Shown piece after piece: positions 6,851 to 60,505 of a DNA stretch of 64,000 nt. Under the pieces are notes generated by a model, which saw only the letters and a program-made list of their open reading frames with translations, was not told the origin of the DNA and did not search any database. The stretch spans positions 126,501-190,500 of the forward strand of contig CM038926.1 of the NCBI GenBank assembly GCA_021904315.1, written 5' to 3'. Source of the DNA: Sphagnum magellanicum. Lineage: Eukaryota > Streptophyta > Sphagnopsida > Sphagnales > Sphagnaceae. Position 1 is the first letter of the stretch. Each line of letters begins with the position of its first letter. Made by a program: the position numbers and the translations under genes.

Positions 6851-8001
6851 CTAACTCCACTCATAGTGTGTAAACAACTCATCTCCTGATCTGATGGTCC
6901 TAATAGCTATAACCAGGCAATGGTCTTCATGATAAGTCTGGCCATATGGTGCTGGAGGAGGTCCCTCAACAAAAACCCACTCACAATTAGCCCTACGCTT
7001 AGGATGAGTCCCCACTGTACTGTTGATGAAACCAGCAATGTTTCCAGAACGTATGGGGTCTCCATCTATCACCCTCACATCACTATGCCTCCTAGTGCTA
7101 CCAGCAAAGGTGTCCATCTCAAGAGCAAAGGTCTTCCACTCAGGATGTTGTGTGAGGATCCTGTTCCAATGTCTTCTCTTATAGATAGGCCCACCATAAG
7201 GGAACAAAGTAGGACCCTCTCTACGACATCTAGCTGAATCCTCTACAATGATGTCCTCACAAGCATATACTCCATAGCCATGCCTCTCTCCAAGTGTAGA
7301 GGTCTTAACAATCCATCGTCTACCCCAAACCACAACCTCCTCATCATAGGGCAAACTATCAAGCAACCCAAGAACTACAGGGTTCCATGATTGGATAATA
7401 TTGGCACATTTGCCAGTGAACTCACACATACCCCATCTGCCCTCAACAATAGTCCTAGCATGACCCTCACTTGGACGTTGTGCTTTGGATCGCTGGCTAA
7501 CGAAGGGCACACGTGGCCTTGCCTCATGCTGTGACTTATTGGCCTCATGAGAGGTACCAATCCCTATAGCAAATGCCTGCGAAAGTGCATTTCCTATGGC
7601 AGCTAAAACCCCTTGTGATAGAACATAGGGTGGTGGTTTCATACGGGAACCCTATTACATTCAAAAAACCACAACAAACCATGGAAGTGAAAATAGTTTC
7701 AAAGAGGATTTCATGAAAAATAACATGTATCAAAGAGGAAAAAATGACAATGGTAAATGACACTTACCACATGAGATGAAGAAGCTCCTGGAGTAAGACC
7801 ACGATGACGCCCAAATCGCTGAATGTGTTGAGCACAAACATATGACTTTTGTGAAATCTGACCAACACACTTGGTGCATTGGCAAAGCTGCCGAGGTGGA
7901 CCACGAGGAAAATGAGACACCTCTGCCTACGTATGAGCTGATGTGCCCTCATTTGAGGAGGATGAATCACTAGTGGACACAACGGAAGAAGAAGACATCA
8001 T
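6851..8001 (-). CDS. SET-domain gene carried in the CACTA (two exons)
   Basis: Exon 2 (7651-6851, 266 codons plus stop) encodes a SET-like domain in its second half. Visible motifs are the GYGVYACEDI entry, LFPYGG, GNIAGFINST followed by RRANCEW (compare GN..RF.NHS...N), and GDELFTHYEW at the end. SET domains are usually protein-lysine methyltransferases. Exon 1 (8001-7768) has a Ser-rich start and a Cys/His-bearing stretch (CQCTKCVGQISQKSYVCAQH). The junction is clean: donor GTG|GTAAGTG at 7767, acceptor TAATAG|GGTTCC at 7652, phase 0. Exon 1 read from its first ATG contains one in-frame TAG, so exon 1 is damaged or starts later. In the SET core the Arg and the NHS triad are altered (GF and NST), so activity is doubtful. 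It lies between TNP2-type pieces on the same strand and may be a captured host gene or part of a chimaeric transposase gene. Confidence 0.72.
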
Positions 8002-9765: not shown

Positions 9766-11516
9766 TTAATCGCGCAACGGGGCGTTGTCATCATGCGGAT
9801 CCAGATCCGGTATAGCAAGACCTTCGAAATGTTGACGATGTTTTTCAATGATGATTTGAAGATCGTGATTGAGTTGTTTTTCATGCCATTCTCCTATGAT
9901 GTCGAGGGACAGCCCGCAGCAAATCATCGCCTTACGGGCATAAGTCAAGCCGGTTTGATCGCGCTGCTCGTTTACCCGACGAACTGTTTCGGCAGCCATG
10001 CGCAAAAAAAACGATTTTCCGAGATTTTGCAGCGCGCCAGATCCTTCACGCCAGAGGCCATCCTTGATGGTTTTGAACTTATAGTCGTCCCAGATCTCCA
10101 TTTAGGCATCCTTGATCTTCGAGATCACAACAAATCGCACGGCTGAATCTTGTCGGTCGCGACAGCCACCAAGTAGCGAAGAGTGGCATTGCTCGCCTCC
10201 AACGCTGCATGCATGTTCCCATTACCGTCATCGTGATGGGCATTGAAGTTGTCCACAAATATCACTCTCTGCTTGGACCGATCGGCTGCATGTCCGCGGT
10301 AGTGAGCACGTGGTTCTTGGAGGTATTGTGCCCACAGCTTCTGCGTGATGAAACCCTTCTTAGTCGTCCTGTAGCAGACTCCAGGGACGTCATCGGGTAC
10401 TCCGCGAATAGGATAGCTTTCGCTGGCATTCTGGAAAATGACACATGGATTACAGATTCTTGCATGTGGCCCGCTCGTTAGCCGAATCATCAGCATCATT
10501 CCCATGCCGCCGGATACTACATCAGCATACTTGACATCATTGTCACCGCGAAATCCCAGTGTCTTGCCGTTGTCCAAGTTGACCTTGCAATGCATTTCAT
10601 CGATGTTCTCAACCAAGTTCTCATCGAGCGTACCAGCGCAAAATTCTCTCGCAAGTTGTCCGAGATGGAATGCGATTTGCTTGTCGATATGCTGTTGACG
10701 AGTAGGGCTCAGCATCAACTTGCCAGTTTGAGCTCGACCGACGATATTGTTGACCGTCTGAAAACGTTGAATCCATCTTATATCGATGCGATCAATGATA
10801 GTGGTGCCCTTGTGCTGTAGGTTGGGAGGGAAATCAGGATGATTCATCTCTACCAGGATGTCCTTCACGAGGCAAACCAGTAGCTTCGGACTGAACTTCA
10901 CGCCCATTTTGCGATAGCGGTCAAATTCGTCGATAATGAAAGGATACAGCCAATCGACCCATGGAGCCCGCTTTGGTCCTCGACAAGGGGCAGCTTTTGT
11001 GAGCACCTTCTTGGCTTTCCCCGGCTGCGCAGAGTTACAGGATACCATGTTGTCACGATCATCACAGATCTGTAGAATAGTAACACGTTTTTCCCACCAA
11101 CGTGACGACTTCATGATTGTCGCGGATGTCGTCCCTCAAAAATGCTCGAGGAACGCCTTGACGGTTCGTGCGTGCAGTCCTTTCTCCCCATTCGTTTCGT
11201 TGTCATTGATCATCCACTCAACAACTCTAATGCGAGTTTGCTGAGTTGTGATTGCGGTAGGACGTTTTCTCTTTCCCAGAGCACAAGGATTGTCGGCAAG
11301 CTGTTCGTCGACGATGACGCGATCATTGTTCGCAATAATTATCACGTCATTGGCTGCGCCATTCGGGTCCAATGGTTCGGGTGGCTCCTTTTCGTCATCG
11401 GCAGCCTGACGTTGACGAGCAACTGCACGAACAATGGGAGACGAGGAAAACACCGACAAACGTACTGCTCCACGTTGTATATCCCGTGAAGATTGAGAGT
11501 TTGACAGTGCAAACAT
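9766..11516 (-). pseudogene. DDE_1/CENP-B-type transposase of the pogo-like element, lightly damaged
   Basis: Three consecutive parts make up one transposase. The N-terminal part (11516-11136) ends in a basic, helix-turn-helix-like region around GKRKRPTAITTQQTRIRVVE. The core (11114-10125) has the DDE signatures NIDEMHCKV, IFVDNFNAHH and DKIQPCD, plus YPIRGVPDDVPGVCYRTTKK. The C-terminal part (10101-9766) reads MEIWDDYKFKTIKDG and SYARKAMICCGLS-like sequence. Parts 1 and 2 are in the same frame, separated only by one TGA (11136-11138). Between parts 2 and 3 there is one single-base frame slip and a TAA where Trp is expected. Three small lesions in about 580 codons indicate recent death. The catalytic triad itself is present. 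Confidence 0.9.
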
Positions 11517-30164: not shown

Positions 30165-32309
30165 TTACATAGCCAACAGGTCATGTACTGCCTTGTCAAT
30201 AAATTTGGTGTCATGGGAGTTGAGGCCTGCACCTGCAAATTGACCCCACACACCGGGTATGACTCGTAGTTCTGCATTCTGCATGAACTTCACTTCATAC
30301 TCTTCATCAGCAACTGGAAAATAGAGATCCTGTGCAGCTGGCATTACAATGGCCTTCGCTCGTATCAATCCAAGAGCTTTCTCCACACTTCCATCACATC
30401 CATCAGTCAACCCAATGTTGCTGTTTTGCCAGGTCCATAGCATGTTCAGCAAGTTGTTGGGATCTCTGCGGTCCAAGAAAAATCCCTCCCAAAAGCCAAT
30501 CAAGAAGTCCTCCAGACTTGAGTAACCCATCTCCCTCCACACCTGTACCACCATAGGAAATGATCCATTAGAAACTGCAATGTGGAAAATGACAAACAGA
30601 AAAGCAGTTTGTGGACATAGCCATGGCAAAATATCTGAATGGATCTCCATGATTAGCCAGGAATAACCCACAAAGATTTCAAACAGCTTTTATAATAATG
30701 GAGCTTGTATAATAATGGATTCACTCACTGCACTTTCAACCCACAAGAAGAAGCAGTGAGAATAGCCTCAATAAATTGACACCATGAAGCAAACTGATCA
30801 AGAAAGGCCCTCCCTATTAACAGGGAAAAGCAACAGGACTGAAGAGATGTAGTAGCATGATCTACAAATAAAATGGAAGCTTCAAATTAAAGGCTTCTGC
30901 CAGACAGTCACTAGCCACGGCTAAGATATCAAACATACATAAAAGCTTGAACTCCTATGAAAAGTGAACTGGGTACATTTGACAGGGATCACAAGCTTTT
31001 TACCTCATTCCAATAGAATGCCTGAGAGAAGCCCCAGCCTGCATAGACACGAGCAACTGCCCGGAGGCCCTTTGAGGGAGTTTTCTCATACCAGCCATCT
31101 TGAAATGAACTGTCTGCTGTAAGAGCTGCCTTGACACCCTCCAGAAAAACCTGCAGCAAAACTAGGCAGAAATTGACATGATGTGCATGACAATGTACCT
31201 TTACAACCCCATATGTCTGTCTTTTGTGCAGTTGTGTGAATAAGTTCATCTTACCACAAGTTCCCTGCCGAAATATGCAAATTCTCAACAGAGCATATTT
31301 ATGTCCCATGTGTGGACAGGCACAACTTTTCCTAAATCTGGATGTCTGTTGTGTCAGAAGCTGCCAAAAATCTAACCTTTCACCTTGAACTATTCTACAT
31401 GCTTTTGGAAACTAGACTTACTAAACTGAATATCTCCAAGAATAAGCATCTACTGCAAAAGCATGGTGAATAGAAGGAAGAGAGGGACACACTGACAATA
31501 TGGTGAGGACTGATGCGAGCTGAGCCGCAGAAAGGAAGAATGCGCTCAACCATGTCAGGGAAGCTAGCAGCCCATTGGAAGGCCTGGCTGGCAGCCATGG
31601 ACCACCCAATCACCAGTTTCAACTGGTGGATTCCAAACTTCTCAGTCAGCAATTTGAACTGTGCTCGTACATTGTCCTCCAACGTCACCTGTGTTCCTTC
31701 AGCAAGTCCCCCATCAAAGACAATGATAACAACATCTGTAAGCAAGCAAAGGAGAAAGCAAATGCAAAGCATAGGCATATACAGATGGAATAAGCCCAAG
31801 GTACTGGCTTGTAGAGAAGGACTCAAATCTTATGTACGAGCAGGCATGGACTTTCCCCACAAGAAAGCTCAGATGAGAATATACATTAACTACTTCAAAT
31901 CTGTTGCCTGACAATGGGTACTGTAAGTTGGTAGGGCGGAATTAACCTTGGGAAAGCGGGCCTTATTGTAAGGTGCTGGGCAGTTGCTCGGAGATGTGGA
32001 GAGGCCATTGCCCAACATGTTAGGAACAATGATAAAGTACTTGCAAGGATCAAGTCCCATTCCAGGCCCAATGAGCCAATCATTCTCCCAATGCCTGCCT
32101 GAAAACCAGGATGGATACAATATTGCATTGCTACGTTCCTCATTCAATGTTCCCCACACCTTGTATGCCACTTTGGCCCCCCGTAGAGTCGCACCTTTCC
32201 TCAGAACAAAGTCTCCTAGATCAAACATATCAAATGCTTCTCTCTCTCCTGTTATCCAGTTGTGAAAATCAGAATCTTTTGCACTGACTGAAACAACACT
32301 CCCCATCAT
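30165..32309 (-). CDS. Homoserine O-acetyltransferase-like alpha/beta-hydrolase, four exons
   Basis: Four exons join in phase 0 with GT-AG borders: 32309-31947, 31688-31497, 31150-31004 and 30542-30165, giving 359 residues if translation starts at the double ATG at 32309/32306. Family features in order are FDLGDFVLRKGATLRG and VAYKVWGTLN, the block YPSWFSGRHWENDWLIGPGM (an oxyanion-side loop), FIIVPNMLGNGLSTSPSN, FPKVTLEDNVRAQ across intron 1, the nucleophile elbow GWSMAASQ, FLEGVKAALTAD, and PAAQDLYFP with the likely acid Asp. The place of the catalytic His reads VWGQFAG, that is Gln (codon CAA). The family includes MetX acetyltransferases, but plants make methionine from O-phosphohomoserine, so the true substrate is unknown. 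The same exons also fit as the C-terminal half of a fusion with the trihelix exons upstream. Confidence 0.92.
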
Positions 32310-32426
32310 TGTGCACACTTCCAACAGAGATTACACCAACAATTGATGTCCTGATTCTGCAAACATAGAACACTAGTTGCATGCAAGATTGGCACTCAGA
32401 ACAACCAGGATGCAGGCACAACAAAC

Positions 32427-34129
32427 CTTGTGACAATGCTCGGGGGTCAAGATGAGTTGGCACTGACATGCTGTCACTTCGGACAATCTTCCGAGGCACA
32501 CGAGTTACTGTTCGCTCAACAGGTCTTTTTCTTGAAGAAACTGCACCTCCTGATGGAGATGAACTTCCTACAGCAACTGGTGATTGGACTTTGGAGTCCT
32601 CAACTTTTGTCACGTTACTCAGTGAGATTGTTCCTGTCAGAAGATGATTAAATGGTACAAGGAATCAGGTACTCCAAAGACTGTATAAATTCATTCTCTA
32701 ACCATCAGCCAGATTCACAGATGTAACAGAAATTCATATTTTCACCTGAAACCACCACACATCTGACACACAGTAGATCAGTTCTGTTTGCAAAACCATG
32801 GACTTAGACCTACAGGCATGATACAGAAGACTAAAGTGGTACATGGCATACCAGGATTTCTTTGCATGAATTTCCAAGGACACACAGGTGTCATACTGAT
32901 GAATCTGCTGCTGGCATTAGTACAATGACAGCCAAATGCTATTAGAACTCACCAGGCTCAACTGCTTGATTCTTGTCATACCACTCCTGTAATCCTTGAT
33001 AGACCTCCTTCTGAAAATTTGGTGGCATCCGGAACGCTTTTCTTTCATCCATCGACATTTGCCAATAAGATCTCTGTCCTGATAAGATGCCACACTCACA
33101 ATCCTTCACCTTCTTAAACTCTGCAGACATGGATTCCCACTTATCCTGACATTGCTGTGCACTGCGCTGCACAAAATGTGCCCAGCAGTAGTCCTCAATT
33201 GACTGCCATTTCTCCTGTGCTGTTCTATGCTTGTCACGTGGAGCGCCTTTCCCTGCCCTAACCACATCTTCTTTCTTTGCAGACTGCAAGACCAGCATCT
33301 CTGAGACATTCCATGGCCCTTTCTTATATACTCGATCTTTCCTGTCCATCTCTGGTCCTCCTCCTGCTGCCGCACTACCTCTTGCAGGATCTACTCCTCC
33401 TACTGTTAACCCTGTGGGAGTTGAAGGGGCATCATCATCCATGGTGATTGCCTCCTCCTCCGTGCCACCTGAGTCCCGAGCTTCAGCTCCTGGATATGAG
33501 TCTTGCCTCAAGGCAACTATTACAAAACCACCAATAACAAACAAGAAATGGCAGCACAGCATTAGAGAATATACTCCGGGGCATGCTGACAAACCTGACT
33601 GCACATCTCTTTCACCTCTATGACTCTTTTCTCCTTGCCACTCCTGTACACTTTTCTGCAGCCATTGATGATCTTCGACTAAAGAAAATTTGAAGAACCT
33701 ATGCTTCCACACTTTGAAGGACTTGTTTGAGCCCATTTCTTTGAAATACGAATCCATGCTTGGCTGTGAATTTCCAAATTGCCAAGTATTGCTCTGCTGC
33801 TCAGCAGCATCATACTATTATTGCTAGCTCTTGCAGCAAAGCAAGCAAAAGAACACATTCACAAATCACCCAACAAGCTCACCTAGTTCCTGTGCCTCCA
33901 GGTCCCCATCCTCAATTCCAACAACACCACTGACAACAGCACCACCACCACCACCTCCGCCACTCGCTCCCCCCCCAATCTCTGCACCCCCTTCCTCCAT
34001 TCTTAGATCGATCTCAAGCGCTTTCCCAGCCCTGAGCTCATACTCCAATGTCTGCTGCCCAGTGTCATGGTCCCTCTGCAACAAGCTGTGGATCCCAATC
34101 TCCATCCCCCTCTTCCGCATCCAGTGCAA
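32427..34129 (-). CDS. Trihelix (GT-factor/Myb-SANT-like) DNA-binding protein exons
   Basis: Exon A (34129-33883) starts at an ATG and encodes 82 residues, including a predicted helical stretch and a poly-Gly tract. Exon C (33516-32953) carries the trihelix domain with the spaced aromatic residues GPWNVSEMLVLQ, EKWQSIEDYCW and CQDKWESMSAEFKKV, followed by SYWQMSMDERK. Exon D (32633-32427) is Ser/Arg/Pro-rich with a basic patch SSRKRPVERTVTRVPRKIV, possibly a nuclear signal. Junctions GAACTAG|GTGAGC, TAATAG|TTGCC, CCTG|GTGAGT, CTGACAG|GAAC and CACAAG|GTTTGT are all canonical and phase 1. An alternative splice end at AATCAGG would close the protein after nine more codons. Trihelix proteins bind GT-rich promoter elements; the target here is unknown. 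Confidence 0.82.
33595..33757 (-). other. Possible alternative first exon of the trihelix gene
   Basis: An ATG at 33757 opens a 54-codon frame with SFKVWKHRFFKFSLVED and QWLQKSVQEWQ, ending at the donor GTCAG|GTTTGT. It joins exon C in the same phase 1 as exon A. No acceptor just upstream would let exon A feed it in frame, so it looks like an alternative start, not an internal exon. Confidence 0.5.
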
Positions 34130-35383
34130 CTACGGAACGCGCAGACCAATCCTTTCAGAGCTCGATTTCTGATTTTGTGACAGCAAAATGGACCACAAGG
34201 TCACGAACCACCAGCGAACACCACTTCGGAAATCGAAGAGCAATCGTGTTACAAGGATGGACTAGAAAGCAAAAGGACCCAACAAACAAATTGTGCCTCA
34301 CAAATGTCCCTGCATGCGGAACGAGCGAAAGAAAACTCAGACACAACACAAAATCCTTCTCTCCACACGCAAAAGCAGTTGTAAACACCGGAAGGACTCG
34401 TGAAGTACAGCCAGTTCGGATGTTGTTCCTCGATGAGGGAGGTTCAGAGACGATTTTCTCCTTCTACGATGCTATTGTTTGTCGTCTGTAAGTAGAAGGA
34501 AGCAAGTATTCGGCAAACGAGCGATTGCTCGACGGCAGCGAGTATCTCACTTCTTGAAATTTTCGTGCAAGGATTCGCCGTTCGCCGAAATTTGTAACCA
34601 CCTCTACATGTTGAGAAAAGATTCAGGTTTCGGGGTGGCAAAAGTTCCAGCAATAGAAAATCGGTCTTTTCTTTTTTTCTCTTGGATCTAGCGAAAGCAG
34701 GAAGAAGATGGAGATTCTGGGTCGTGGACGTATATTGGGGATGTGATGGCCGGAATGGAAGTTTTGGACCGAGGAGCAAGTGTAAAACAAGAGGAGCAAC
34801 GAAGGATAAGGCAAGCAGGGCGTGAAGAGCTCGGATCGGCAGAAGAGCCAAAAGAGTGCCAGAGAACGGGCAGTCTTGGACGAACAGCAGGAGCAAGAGT
34901 AGAAAAAGCCAAGCAGACGTGAGGAGCTTGGATCTTCATCAGGAGAAGAGCAAGGAAAATAGATAGCACAAGCACAGCGCAGAAATCTGGATGCCGCCCA
35001 TTCACCTAAAACACTATAGAAGCTTCCACGCAGTAGTGCAGCCGCGGATCTAACCGCTGCCCTACAGTCTGAAGCTCTGCTCTCTCCTCACATCCACCAC
35101 TTGAGTTACTCCGATTCCAGGAGCCTCATAGATTAGTCAGAGATTTTGTGGTAGAAGACGAACACGTGAGACCGAATATCGTAAGGATTTTTGTTCCTGA
35201 GGAGACATCACGAGCACGCGCTTCATCCAATTAGATCTGCCAGGAATCCCTCACACTCCGTGCGTCTGCTGATCAGGAAAGAGCAAGGAGAATTGATCGT
35301 GTACAGCGTCAATCCGGTCGCCAACGGGTCGGGAAGAGGCGTCCGCTCCTAAAACCGCGTGTCTTCCAAACCAGCACGAGGTG
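34130..35383. promoter_or_regulatory. GC-richer 5' flank of the trihelix gene, possible divergent promoter
   Basis: This stretch has more G+C and CpG than the flanking DNA. It lies upstream of the minus-strand gene. On the plus strand a strong donor GAG|GTGAGTC at 35381 follows a CG-rich leader-like sequence (about 35040-35380), which would fit the first exon of a divergent transcript. No clear TATA box was identified. Confidence 0.4.
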
Positions 35384-35583
35384 AGTCTTTCCCTATGCAA
35401 GATTTCCGAGTTTTTCTGCTCAGGCTACTACCATTTTTCCGTCGGCAAGTATCAGGGTTTGATGTGACGGTGATTAGTTCCATGGAACCTCAAAGCAAAA
35501 CGATGTTTGCAGTAAAAGGATGTTTACAGGTGTACAGGTGCTTCTTCAAGTCCAAAGAGTTGCTTGAGGAAATCTTTTGTTTC

Positions 35584-35713
35584 AGAACCATCAAGAGATC
35601 TTTCACAGATTTCGTGTCAGAACCGTCAAGAGATCCTTCACAGCTTTTGTTTCAGAAACATCAAGAGATCTTTCACAGCTTGTGTTTCAAAACCATCAAG
35701 AGGATCTTTCACC
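35584..35713 (+). repeat. Tandem array, 35-bp unit, about 3.7 copies
   Basis: Units begin AGAACCATCAAGAGATCTTT and end TTGTGTTTC; they differ from each other at a few positions. Confidence 0.9.
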
Positions 35714-35836
35714 AGGTTGACAGCAAGTGGAGGCCTTACACAAGATTTTCATTTACCTGGAATGCAAATCTGTTTTATAAAGACTATCCATCTTGCTGTG
35801 CAAAAGTAGCCAGAGGCTGTGCAACATTTTGTAATG

Positions 35837-36172
35837 CAGCTCCTCCATGTCTGGCTTCTTCTTGGAACATTCCAATCCATTTCTGGAAGGATTGTGGAGA
35901 AATTGCAGGATCAGTGTACCCAGCTCCACCATCTCTGGCTTCTTCTTGGAACATTTCAAGCCACTTCTGGAAGGGTTGTGGAGAAATTGCAGGATCAGGT
36001 TACCCAGCTCCACCATCTCTGGCTTCTTCTTGGAATATTTCAAGCCACTTCTGGAAGGTTTGTGGAGAAATTGCAGGATCAGGGTACCCAGCTCCACCAT
36101 CTCTGGCTTCTTCTTGGAACATTTCAAGCCACTTCTGGAAGGGTTGTGAAGAAATTGTAAAGCAGGATCAGG
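35837..36172 (+). repeat. Tandem array, 84-bp unit, four copies
   Basis: Units start at 35837, 35921, 36005 and 36089 with CAGCTCCACCATCTCTGGCT and include TTCTTGGAACATTTCAAGCC. Spacing is exactly 84 in each case, and units 2-4 are nearly identical. Confidence 0.96.
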
Positions 36173-36256
36173 GTACCCACCTGAGAGAGAGTTGGCAGAG
36201 AAGCAGTTCTGCTGATGAGATTTTTCTGGACTCCCGTGTTGATGATTCCAGGCAAG

Positions 36257-36468
36257 TCCTAACCAAGTGTTGAGAAGGTCAGAGAAGTGTTCACACAAGT
36301 TTGAGTTTCAACAAATCATCTCAGGAAGAAGCAAACACTTGTTTTGTAGAGAACAAACTGTGTCCTATCCAAATGTTGAGAAGGCCAGAGAAATGTTCGC
36401 ACAAATTTGAGTTTCAACAAATCATCTCAGGAAGAAGCAAACACTTGTTTTGTAGAGAACAAAGTGTG
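36257..36468 (+). repeat. Tandem duplication, 106-bp unit
   Basis: Two copies start at 36257 and 36363. They share GAGTTTCAACAAATCATCTC and AGCAAACACTTGTTTTGTAG. Confidence 0.95.
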
Positions 36469-53359: not shown

Positions 53360-55851
53360 TTTTGGGACATAGAGCCGATTTTGCTTATACCACAATAGTC
53401 CATTTTGAAAGTGGAAGTGGGACTTGATCCCCTTTTGAATGTCTTGCTTCCTTTCCTTAACAAACTCATCACGACGGCTCCAAAGTCGAACTTCCTTTTG
53501 GAATTGTGTTTCCCCCACATACACCACTTTAAGTTGGTGTTTTCGTCTTAAGGCATCGGGCACCACGTTTTCCTTCCCGGGCTTGTGCCGAATGTCCCCA
53601 TTGAACAAGGCCAATGTGTCTTGCCATCTCACTTGTTTTCATGACAACTTTGGTTGGGTGCCAAAATACTTCAAGGTCACATTGTCGGTTCACACCACCA
53701 CATCCTTGGAGCCTATGTAATGGCCCCAAGTCTTGAGACACCATATCAGGGCCCACATTTCCTTCTCATGGGTTTGCCACCTCCGTTCAGTGTCACTCAA
53801 CTTTTTGCTTTCAAAAGCCACCAGCCTACCATTTTGCACTAGGATTCCTCCTATGGCAAAGTCGGACGCATCGGAATGGATCTCAAAATCCTTGTCAAAA
53901 TCGAGCACCTTCAACACAGGCACTTTCACCACAATGCCTTTCAAGGTTTCGAAGGCCTCCTTGCATGCCTCCTTCCATTCATAAGTCCCGGATGACTTCT
54001 TCAAAAGGTTTGTCAAAGCTGTGACTATCTTTGCAAAGTTCCTGATGAACTTGCGATAATAGGACGCCAATCCTAAAAAGGATCTTAAGGCGGGAACCGA
54101 CCTAGGCGGTTCCCAATCCAAAATTGCCTTCACCTTGTGGTCATCCATTTTCAAACCTTCTTGGGTGATCTTATGCCCAAGGAAGTCCACTTCTGAGGCT
54201 CCAAATTCGCATTTCTCAAACTTGGCATATAACGTGTTTTCCCTCAACCTTTGGAACACCTTTCGAAGGTGTCCTACATGCTCCTCCATGGAGTTGTTGT
54301 AAACCAAAATGGCGTCTATGGACAACCATAAAGTCATCAAGCCACTTTCAGAAAATGTCATTCATGAGAGTGCAAAATGTGGCGGGTGCATTAGTGAGCC
54401 CAAAAAACATCACCAAGAATTCATAAGAACCATATCTTGTGCGACAAGCAATTTTTCTTCATCCCCTTGTGCAATTCGAATTTGGTAATACTCGGAACGT
54501 AGGTCAATCCTACTAAACATTTTGGCTCCCGAAAGTCGATCAAACAAGTCATCAATCCGAAGCAATGGGTATTGATTTTTCACCGTCACTTTGTTGAGGG
54601 CTTTATGATCCACAAACATCTTCAAAGTCCCATCCTTATTGTGAACAAAAAGGACGGGAGCCTCGTATGGTGATTTGCTAGGCTTCATGTATTGCTTTGC
54701 GAGGAGTTCTTCGAATTGAACCTTAAGCTTTTAAAACTCCTCATGATTCATTCGATATGGGGCCTTGGCGGGAGGTGCCACTCTCGGCATCACTTCAATC
54801 GCATGGTCAACTTATCTTCTCGGGGGCAACTCATCGGGCAACTCTTCGGGCATCACATTCGAAAATTCCTTTAACACTTGCTTGATGCACTTGTGAAGGT
54901 TCACCACCTTGGTGGCCTCCTTTGGTTCAAACTCATCTAACACCCACAACAGGCCATAGCCTCCCACACATTATCTTTCCAAGGTCTTTCCCAACATCAA
55001 ATGGATGGTGGTCCCACCCACACTAGGCACTTCATGTGCCTTCACTCGCACGATCCCATTTTTGGATAGGATTCTAACTAGCCTATAGTGCCTTTCTATG
55101 AGCACATTGTTACGTGAGATGAGTTCCATTCCCAAAATGCAATCCATTCCGCCTAAGGTGGAAACTAACAAGTCCACCTTGCCTCTCCAATTCCCCAATT
55201 GGAGAGGCACATCTTTTGCTTGTAACTTGGTGGGATGGGGAATCCCATCTGCAAAGTGCACCTCAATGGGTGCCTTGAGCTCCTCCAACGGGAGCTCCAT
55301 TCTTTCGGCACTTTTTTGGGTTATGAAGTTGTGGGAAGCCCATGTGTCCAAAAGACATAACATTTTTCGCTTAGAAATCTTACCCTTTAAGAAAATAAGG
55401 CGATTACATTCACCTTGGGCTAGGTTGGCGGTAAGGGCAATTACTTTAGAAGCCCCATTCCCCAGTTTGGGTTTGGGGCAATCCTTGGAATAATGTCCCA
55501 CTTCCTTGCAATTGAAACACGCTCCTTTTGGTTTCCCACTAACATCCCCCTTGGGTTGGTTCCCTTTGAAAGGAGCCCCCTTCTTAACAAAATTTCCTTT
55601 GGGTTTGAAACCCGAGCCTTGGAATTGTTTGGGCTTTTCCCCCTTGGCGGTGTCTTGGACTCGGTTCCATTCCCGTTCATGGCGTGCCTTCTTGTGAGGG
55701 AACTTGCTATCCCTTTTGAATCCAGACTTCTCACCCCGTCCCACATCCGAAAAGCCTTCCACTTTCATGATGGCTTTAGTTAGTGAAGCGGGCCAATTCT
55801 CTTCAAGCTTACGCTTGGCCCAAGTTAGAAGCCCATCACAAAGTGGCACAC

Positions 55852-56691
55852 TCGGGAGTAGGAAGAGTGACAAGCTATTCACTTGAACCTGCATCAAACC
55901 AACCAACAAGTTGGTTAGTTCACATTCTATAACACCTTTGGTGTTAAGACAAACCACGGGCAACTCTGGACTCATTTGACTCACCACGGCCCGGACTCGG
56001 GGGAAGCCACCACCTTCCCCCATACAATATACTTTGTGCCTCTCCGCGACACCCACATCCAAATGGCTTTTCTTTCCCGGGACTCCTGAGTGGGAGTCTC
56101 AAAATCGTGCCAGTTGGGACTCCCGCGACTTTGGAACCCCATAACTTTGCAAGCAGATCGCAAATTGAAATGCAGACTAAAGCAAAGTTGTAGCTCTTGT
56201 CAAGAGCTTTCCAACGGTATGTTGCACGTCTTCTGCAGCTAAGTAAATCGGGTCAATTCTTGACTTTTTCTCGTCGAAAGTCAAACTGGTAGTTTGACTC
56301 CCGGCCTTTCTTTTGCCCATAACTTGTGTTTCAAATGTCCAAATGAGCAATGCAAGCCCATTTTAGACATTTACGTTCTAAAAGTTGTTTTTAATAATAT
56401 AAGGAACGCCACAAGCCATTGAGTTTTGACTGCTGAAATCGCTCTCTAAAGTTTCGGTAATCCACCATGACTCCATCTCCCAAAATGGGAGTTGCCTTGG
56501 GAGTGTGAAGGTTCACTCCCTCGTACTCCCTCACACTTTCTTACACTCTTGGGAATAATTAATGTGACTCTCGGGCTTCTTCTTGGCCCGCACCCTTGCG
56601 ACCCCTTTACCTTGACTCTCGGGCTTCCTCTTGGCCCGCAACCTTGTAACCCCTTTGCCTTTGTTACGAGCCCAAAGCTAGGGTTGCCACA
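55852..56691 (-). repeat. Partial 5' LTR of the minus-strand B element (long class)
   Basis: It ends GCTAGGGTTGCCACA at 56691 and includes the TATA-region block (CCCCCATACAATATAC) and the GTTGGTTAGTTCACATTC stretch. It abuts gag-coding sequence directly. Confidence 0.8.
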
Positions 56692-58423: not shown

Positions 58424-59697
58424 CTGAGAGAGCTCGATTCATTTATTGGGGAGTTCCGATGGCACCCAAGAGGACTTGCAAGGTAGTTCAAAAGACCATG
58501 GTGGAAGAACCCACCCAAGACTCGGATGTTCCACCATAAGCCATAAGGGGGGAAGAACAAAAAGGATCCCAAAGGTGAGGAAGACCGTGATAGCCATGAG
58601 AACCATGAAAATGAAGAGGAGCAACCAAATACAATCCACTTCACCTCCGAACAATTGGAGGTCCTACTCAAAATCAATAGGCCCGATTTCAATGAATTGG
58701 TTGCGGTCCTCAAGGGAGGATCATCCAAAGGGGTGGAGTTCAAGCCCGCTAAGCCTAGGAATTTTGATGGGGCCCGAGATCCAAAGGTTGTGGATGTTTG
58801 GCTTGCGAAAATGGAAGATTACCTTCATGTCGCCAAGGTTGGTCGGCACTTAGCTGTGGAACTTACCCAATCCTATTTGAAGGGCTATGATTCCACATGG
58901 TGGAGGATGATGAGGCAAGAGGAAGGGAAGACCCATAGCTACTCATTGGAATTCTTCAAGGAGCGTATTGAGTTGAAATTCATTCCCAAGAATTCCGACT
59001 ACATTTCGAGGTGCAAATTTTGTGACCTTGTGAATGCAAACAATGACAACTTGCATCAATATGTGGGGGCTTATTCCGAACTCATGCTTGAAATTAAGCA
59101 TATGCATGAGTTAGACCGGGTGTGCCACTTTGTGATGGGCTTCCAACTTGGGCCAAATGCAAGCTTGAAGAGAATTGGCCCACTTCACTAGCCAAAGCCA
59201 TCATGAAAGTGGAAGGCTTTTTGGATGTGGGACGAGGTGAGAAGTCCGAATTCAAAAGGGATAGCAAGTTCCCTCACAAGAAGGCACACCATGAAGGGGA
59301 ATGGAACCGAAGCCAAGACACCTCCAAGGGGGAAAAACCCAAACAATTCCAAGGCTCGGGTTTCAAACCCAAAGGAAATTTTGTCAAGAAGGGGGTTCCT
59401 TTCAAAGGGAGCCAACCCAAGGGGGATGCTAGTGGGAAACCCAAAGGAGCGTGTTTCAATTACAATGAAGTGGGGCATTATTCCAAGGATTGCCCCAAAC
59501 CTAAACCGGGGAATGGGGCTTCTAATGTAATTGCCTGTACTGCCAACCAAGCCCAAGGTGAATGTAATCACCTTATTTTCTTAAAAGGTAAGATTTTTAA
59601 GCGAGAAGTGTTATGTCTTTTGGACACAGGGGCTTCCCACAACTTCATAACCCAAGAAAGTGCCGAAAGAATGGAGCTCCCGTTGGAGGAGCTCAAG

Positions 59698-60505
59698 TGT
59701 TGTAACCCCACTTTGGGCAAAGTGGGAGAATGCAACTCCCACTCCCAAAAGTGGGAGACTTGGAATCCTCCGGGACTCTTGAAAACTCAGAAGACAATTT
59801 GAGGGGTCAAATCTCCTCGCCTTGTTTACGTTATTTATGTCATTGGAAAGGTCTTCAAGAGTAAATGTCTAAAATGGCCTTGCATGAGCCATTTGGACAT
59901 CTGCAGCCCAAGTTATGGTCAAAAGAAGGGCCGGGAGTCAAATTGGCAATTTGACTCCTGACAACTAAAAGTCAGGAATCGACCTCTTTCCGAGGTCCAA
60001 TTCAAGAGTGCGACATGGCGTTGGAAAGCTCTCTTTGAAGGCTACAACTTTGCTTTAGACCTCGTCTTCATTGGACTTTGCAGTCGGGAGTTATGAGCTC
60101 TCAAAGTTGCAGGACTCCAACCCGGGATTACTCCAACTTGGGAGTCTTGGGGAAAAGTGCCATTTAGATGTAGTCCCCATGGAGAGCTGTAGAGAATACT
60201 ATATGGGGGAAGGTGGTGGCTTCCCCCGAATCTGGGCCGTGGTGAGTCTTGTGTGTAAAAGTGCCCGTGGATTGTCCCAACACCCAAGGGTGTTCCCGAA
60301 TGTGAATGGTTAGTGGTTGGTTTTGGATGCAGAATCAAGCTTGATCTTCTAGTCCATCTTCCTAGTCTAATCCCGGGACTTCTAGCACGCCCCTCTACCC
60401 CTCTTTAGTGCTAGAAGTCGGGAGCGCCCCTCAAGTCCCAACTTTCCACAACTCAACATAGTTGGACCCTCAAATGGGTTCAACCCGGGACTTGGGAGTG
60501 CGTCA
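59698..60505 (+). repeat. Solo LTR of family B (short class) in the protease region of a B element; target duplication TCAAG
   Basis: TGTTGTAACCCCAC...GGGAGTGCGTCA, 808 bp, lies between exact TCAAG copies at 59693-59697 and 60506-60510. The intact copy of this region at 55.2-55.3 kb shows the uninterrupted sequence. Confidence 0.95.

Follow-up and report, generated by a model that had tools for sequence, protein, structure and literature searches.

The gene and its exons

The predicted gene considered in this work lies on the minus strand at positions 34129-30165 of a 64,000-nucleotide stretch of Sphagnum magellanicum DNA (assembly GCA_021904315.1, contig CM038926.1, C20:126501-190500; the whole stretch is called the window below). 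It appears to join a trihelix DNA-binding domain to a bacterial-type alpha/beta-hydrolase in one open frame, and the reading favoured here is that it may encode a transcription factor with a pseudoenzyme as its tail.

Exon 1 (34120-33883) begins with the ATG at 34120, encodes a Gly-rich N-terminus and has its highest codon score in the reading frame. Exon 2 (33516-32953) carries the Myb/SANT-like trihelix domain (PF13837, product residues 147-233), and exon 3 (32633-32427) encodes a Ser-rich, basic linker (RKRP...VPRK), coding-like in frame, for which the search of the same genome gave no match except itself. Then follows the putative fusion intron (32426-32288; donor GTTTGT, acceptor GTTGTTTCAG; 139 nt; T content 37%), whose last 69 nt (32356-32288) are disputed. 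Exon 4 (32287-31947) encodes a linker and the N-terminal part of the hydrolase, exon 5 (31688-31497) the nucleophile elbow GWS(151)MA(153), exon 6 (31150-31004) a further piece of the same domain, and exon 7 (30542-30165) Asp306, Gln335 (codon CAA, 30242-30240) in place of the catalytic His, and the stop.

All six introns have GT-AG borders, the exon ends show phases 1,1,1,0,0,0, and no stop interrupts the joined frame; in these respects the seven-exon, single-frame model given in a preliminary description of this DNA was fully reproduced on rebuilding. The continuous frame proposed there stands, and its length of 691 residues has to be corrected to 688, because position 34129, where the open frame starts after a stop, is three codons ahead of the first ATG (34120). 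The model is not unique in intron 1: 17 acceptors in the range 33882-33450 would keep the frame without a stop, and of these 33516 gives the protein length of the preliminary description. In the joined protein both domains are above the Pfam gathering cut-offs (PF13837, 2e-10; Abhydrolase_1, 2.8e-10) and the hydrolase is aligned with its family model over the full length, so that the pairing of the domains is more than a chance one.

Trihelix part and the missing tail

The assignment of a trihelix DNA-binding domain is borne out by the PF13837 match (E 9e-11, 42.5 bits against a cut-off of 27), and the GT-1 domain was matched in the Protein Data Bank (PDB; 2ebi, E 0.002); DNA binding itself is a predicted property. 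A trihelix search of the same genome gave 46 matches, including pieces of this gene, and 8.5-9.9 kb of sequence was examined at the locus of each of its three closest paralogs (identity 53%, 54% and 44%). In all three of them the C-terminal exon is rich in charged residues. This tail, which is without a Pfam match, would be coiled-coil-like in our own reading. No hydrolase was found beside these paralogs within 2.1-2.9 kb beyond the tail, apart from one chance-level match (E 0.10).

A tail profile made from the three paralogs gave matches at E <= 4e-11 in three further loci of the 13 paralog loci, none of them used in the model, and weak matches (E 0.003-0.02) in four others; there was no match within the 1.5-kb flanks of L015, L020 and L021. 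The short locus L010 stops before the tail, which was taken from L025. The tail is a feature of the local subfamily and not of the whole trihelix family. No significant tail match was obtained within the 64-kb window (the lowest E values were 0.43 with tblastn and about 4 with the profile), so the gene appears to be devoid of the tail of its closest relatives, and the hydrolase occupies its place. The sister paralog of the gene was not resolved in the domain tree of paralogs (14 rows). Insertion of the hydrolase into a trihelix intron, with the tail located further downstream, was considered and rejected on the absence of a significant tail match in the window.

Hydrolase part and its altered catalytic residues

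The hydrolase matches the NCBIfam model NF005757/PRK07581 (4e-153, 509 bits against a cut-off of 332) from end to end, with residues 25-358 aligned to positions 6-338 of the 339-position profile; the nearest solved structures are PDB 5d6o and 5e4y. The designation "homoserine-acetyltransferase-like hydrolase" in the preliminary description is thus right as to the alpha/beta-hydrolase fold and loose as to homoserine, since NF005757/PRK07581 fits and the MetX models fail. An active MetX homoserine O-acetyltransferase was rejected, both equivalog models being under their cut-offs (TIGR01392, 144.7 against 500 bits; NF001209, 138.7 against 331).

One scan of bacterial genomes yielded one relative from seven stretches, in a Saccharothrix deserti record, and 18 of the 296 genomes of the Saccharothrix deserti phylum had a match at E <= 1e-60. 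Relatives were drawn from this phylum only, and 24 loci were aligned. Thirteen of these loci show 61-72% identity to the moss hydrolase, the aligned length being 332-343 residues in 12 of them and 285 in the last; a further locus is 65% identical over 179 residues, and the other ten are at 39-45%. On this sampling of one bacterial phylum, the hydrolase may have been acquired by horizontal transfer from some bacterial donor. Bacterial contamination is unlikely, as the hydrolase has three introns.

Ser151 of the moss hydrolase is kept in 24/24 relatives and Asp306 in all 23 that are not gapped at its column. The catalytic His, present in 23/23 relatives with a letter at this position, is replaced by Gln335, and Gly153 of the nucleophile elbow, found in 24/24 relatives, by Ala; consequently, neither the complete Ser-Asp-His triad nor the GxSxG elbow occurs in the moss protein. 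The catalytic His was assigned partly by its position in the alignment with 5d6o and partly from what we take to be the arrangement of the fold. Because of His335Gln, enzymatic activity of the domain is improbable, and the hydrolase tail would be catalytically dead or weak.

The junction: one gene or two

Two acceptors follow the donor of the third intron. The pyrimidine-rich acceptor described earlier at 32288 is present (GTTGTTTCAG), as is the competing one at 32357, which reads TTTGCAG and would give a 70-nt intron. When splicing goes to 32357, the trihelix product ends with ...LSQESGHQLLV before a TAA at 32333-32331, located in the same frame as the ATG of the hydrolase at 32309 and separated from it by 21 nt. 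The disputed 69 nt, which hold both this stop and this ATG, are intronic if the fusion is real, and their composition is intron-like or similar to that of an untranslated region. Their T content is 33%, as compared with 20-26% in exons 2-4 and 32-39% in four introns. Their codon score of -0.14 (the stop being left out) is just under those of all 665 windows of this size in the fused coding sequence (minimum -0.11) and falls within the intron range, which was derived from the same introns that served as the background of the codon score. These values support a non-coding nature of the segment, which fits the fusion and cannot separate an intron from a short untranslated region between two genes. 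On both sides of it the codon score is best in the fusion frame, namely 0.33 in exon 3, hardly above the 0.321 that marks the 95th percentile for random windows, and 0.27 in the opening 24 codons of exon 4, a value that is partly self-trained.

The locus is most simply read as a single transcription unit, because the gap of 21 nt is too small to accommodate separate untranslated regions and a promoter without overlap. We infer that the splice joining 32427 to 32287 is used. The fusion interpretation of the preliminary description is retained in this qualified form: the domains, the compatible frame, the absent tail, the 21-nt spacing of the open frames and the intron-like segment are all consistent with it, and two closely packed genes, or one mRNA with two open frames, are a less likely alternative.

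The main rival frame is that of readthrough pairs with intergenic splicing. According to this explanation, splicing to 32357 terminates the trihelix protein, and the hydrolase is produced from the ATG at 32309 by means of an internal promoter, leaky scanning or reinitiation. Several of the features already mentioned count for it and against the fusion: the limits of the codon scores and the ambiguity of the non-coding segment given above; the higher pyrimidine content of the TTTGCAG acceptor, close behind the donor (12 of the last 20 bases, against 8 at 32288); and the hydrolase's own in-frame ATG at 32309, from which the whole domain is kept intact. In addition, intergenic splicing was reported in readthrough transcripts of 158 of 271 Arabidopsis readthrough loci (PMC9768141). 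However, the 21 nt between the open frames would require overlapping transcripts, and second open frames of Arabidopsis bicistronic mRNAs are described as seldom translated (PMC9768141). The seven codons MMGSVVS have a slightly negative score (-0.1), which is weak evidence in the same direction. Two genes or a bicistronic mRNA are, in our opinion, a serious possibility, albeit an unlikely one.

The same donor could also serve both acceptors, giving the trihelix protein alone from 32357 and the fusion from 32288, so that the 69-nt segment with its in-frame stop would select a plain or a hydrolase-tailed regulator. The frame is indeed the same with either acceptor, and the stop lies inside the segment. 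However, a frame is kept by chance in one case out of three, and the isoforms are predicted ones; such a switch seems improbable.

Decayed copy on C16 and constraint

No second intact fusion or hydrolase was found elsewhere in the genome at E <= 0.001, and the junction DNA occurs in it once. Weak hydrolase matches were noticed on C17 (E 0.26) and C4 (E 0.71). One further copy was found, a decayed fragment on C16 (L024, C16:12472000-12481000, minus strand, about 3886-2636 of this locus), which starts at exon 6 and carries stops and an insertion in exon 7. Identity between the gene and this copy is 84-88% in the exons and 74% in the intron between them. The catalytic His codon is preserved as CAC in the C16 copy, compared with CAA in the window gene.

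In exons 6-7, 163 codons could be aligned, 127 of them with the same residue. The changes were polarised with 12 of the 24 relatives, leaving out the close but divergent L049, the partial L051 and ten distant ones. Twenty-eight changes were placed on the decayed branch and one, H335Q, on the branch of the window gene, with seven unresolved (binomial about 1e-7); H335Q depends on one assembled base. Since one change stands against 28, exons 6-7 of the window hydrolase have been under constraint while the catalytic His was lost, which is a pseudoenzyme pattern.

Some observations weaken this part of the argument. The constraint was measured in exons 6-7 only, exons 4-5 with Gly153Ala being not polarisable; the C16 copy may have separated before any fusion; and the moss hydrolase is imperfectly conserved, deviating at 14 of the 100 columns in which conservation among the relatives reaches 90% or more.

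The numbers given above bear directly on another explanation, according to which the locus is decaying sex-chromosome debris, that is, a truncated trihelix gene beside an inactivated hydrolase without a functional product. The changed catalytic His and the C-terminal tail not detected in the window agree with decay, and relaxed purifying selection was published for chromosome 20 of Sphagnum (PMC9946827). Against it stand the 688-codon frame free of stops, the ratio of 1 to 28 resolved changes in 163 codons and the measured expression of a trihelix gene on this chromosome in S. angustifolium (PMC9946827). Debris is therefore regarded as very improbable.

Probable sex-chromosome setting

The S. 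divinum assembly was described as having 439 Mb and a small chromosome 20, a sex chromosome shown to be a V (PMC9946827). The genome searched here contains 438,994,042 bp, of which C20, with the window, makes up 4,721,453 bp. For the size of chromosome 20 that paper has two values, 4.7 Mb and, for S. divinum, 5.4 Mb (PMC9946827); the latter value disagrees with the 4.7 Mb of C20 and speaks against the identification.

Two annotated transcription factors were reported on chromosome 20 of S. angustifolium, a mini-zinc finger and the Trihelix Sphfalx20G007700, and a correlation (r > 0.8) was described between expression of the latter and kinases that lie under a growth quantitative trait locus on chromosome 10 (PMC9946827). 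Among at least 129 trihelix matches in the present genome (a lower bound, as 150 of 201 candidates were scored), the window gene is the one on C20. One of nine ZF-HD matches is also on C20 (C20:2530516-2530641) and probably corresponds to the mini-zinc finger reported for the V chromosome. As the only trihelix match on C20 among the candidates scored, the window gene is probably the counterpart of Sphfalx20G007700, which is likewise the only trihelix gene named on chromosome 20; a difference is that the passages of PMC9946827 on that gene mention no fusion, the word "hydrolase" occurring 0 times in the main text. The species, the V linkage and the orthology of the window gene are likely on these grounds. 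The term "male-specific" is valid only for species with separate sexes, because monoicous individuals also map to chromosome 20 (PMC9946827).

Several other features were noted in the window. At 34889-35430 on the plus strand, upstream of trihelix exon 1, there is a divergent and possibly degenerate neighbour with 64% identity over 596 aligned positions to a C17 stretch (about 15.678 Mb) that has a 186-codon open frame. Just upstream of the trihelix gene, positions 35353-36273 of the plus strand form an open frame of 306 codons, for which Pfam gave no match at E <= 0.001. The minus strand contains open frames with matches to a SET domain (6851-7651; PF00856, 1e-5) and to the DDE_1 endonuclease (10125-11135; PF03184, 3e-5; transposase-like). 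Fragmented retrotransposon-like frames (reverse transcriptase/RNase H, aspartyl protease, gag) at 53690-56098 (minus strand) and 58547-59802 (plus strand) are to be expected on a repeat-rich sex chromosome.

Proposed function and comparison with known systems

Summarizing these data, we give a probability of roughly 55% to one gene of the V (male) chromosome in which a tail-less trihelix part is spliced into a complete PRK07581 hydrolase, giving a protein of 688 amino acids whose non-catalytic module is kept for metabolite-responsive regulation. The trihelix gene would have lost its C-terminal coiled-coil-like tail, and its exons would be spliced in the mRNA to the complete bacterial-type alpha/beta-hydrolase. 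The product would be a DNA-binding protein with a folded, non-catalytic hydrolase domain in place of the tail, retained as a ligand-binding and/or dimerising module. The whole protein might act as a metabolite-responsive DNA-binding regulator, by analogy with the proposal for BZR1-BAM7/8, with catalysis lost as in GID1.

A bolder version would make the gene a V-borne one-protein switch, in which a horizontally acquired, His-less bacterial hydrolase, fused to the trihelix factor where the tail had been, provides a GID1-like ligand pocket controlling DNA binding and underlies sex-specific expression in Sphagnum; this version is doubtful. The V-linked trihelix gene is one of two chromosome 20 factors proposed to act on sex-specific growth at low pH in Sphagnum (PMC9946827). 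A sensing role is disfavoured by the His-to-Ala mutant of DAD2, which was reported to lose its response to GR24 (PMC3531792).

No report of a trihelix and hydrolase fusion was found in literature searches on moss, Sphagnum, trihelix fusions and horizontal gene transfer, and searches by term in PMC10463551, PMC13047068 and PMC12711439 gave nothing on it. What is added to the preliminary description is the probable V linkage and the constrained hydrolase with a lost catalytic His. Enzyme-tailed factors are less new and have precedents.

The moss hydrolase resembles the bacterial NF005757/PRK07581 hydrolases (PDB 5d6o, 5e4y) in its full-length family match and in the preserved Ser151 and Asp306, and differs from them in Gln335 instead of His, Ala153 instead of Gly, three introns and the predicted fusion. 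With GID1, the gibberellin receptor, it shares an alpha/beta-hydrolase fold without the active-site His; in GID1 this residue is said to have been lost and the Ser and Asp positions to touch the ligand (PMC3531792). However, GID1 is related to hormone-sensitive lipases, works via DELLA proteins and has no fused DNA-binding domain (PMC3531792).

A further parallel is with BZR1-BAM7/BAM8. As in these proteins, both domains lie in one open frame in the predicted gene. To our knowledge, BZR1-BAM7/BAM8 are not sex-linked. They are nuclear plant transcription factors whose beta-amylase domain has decayed and for which sensing of metabolites has been suggested (PMC6394054), so that the earlier statement that no DNA-binding domain on a metabolic fold had been described was too strong in general. 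The likeness consists in a plant DNA-binding domain joined to a domain that resembles a metabolic enzyme and whose catalytic residues have decayed, whereas the DNA-binding family (BZR1), the beta-amylase fold and the conservation in most flowering plants are different (PMC6394054). If the constrained, His-less hydrolase tail is real, it would add, beside BZR1-BAM, another plant transcription factor with a built-in pseudoenzyme, this one sex-linked and carrying a domain of bacterial type, and would raise the question of whether a small molecule controls the trihelix factor.

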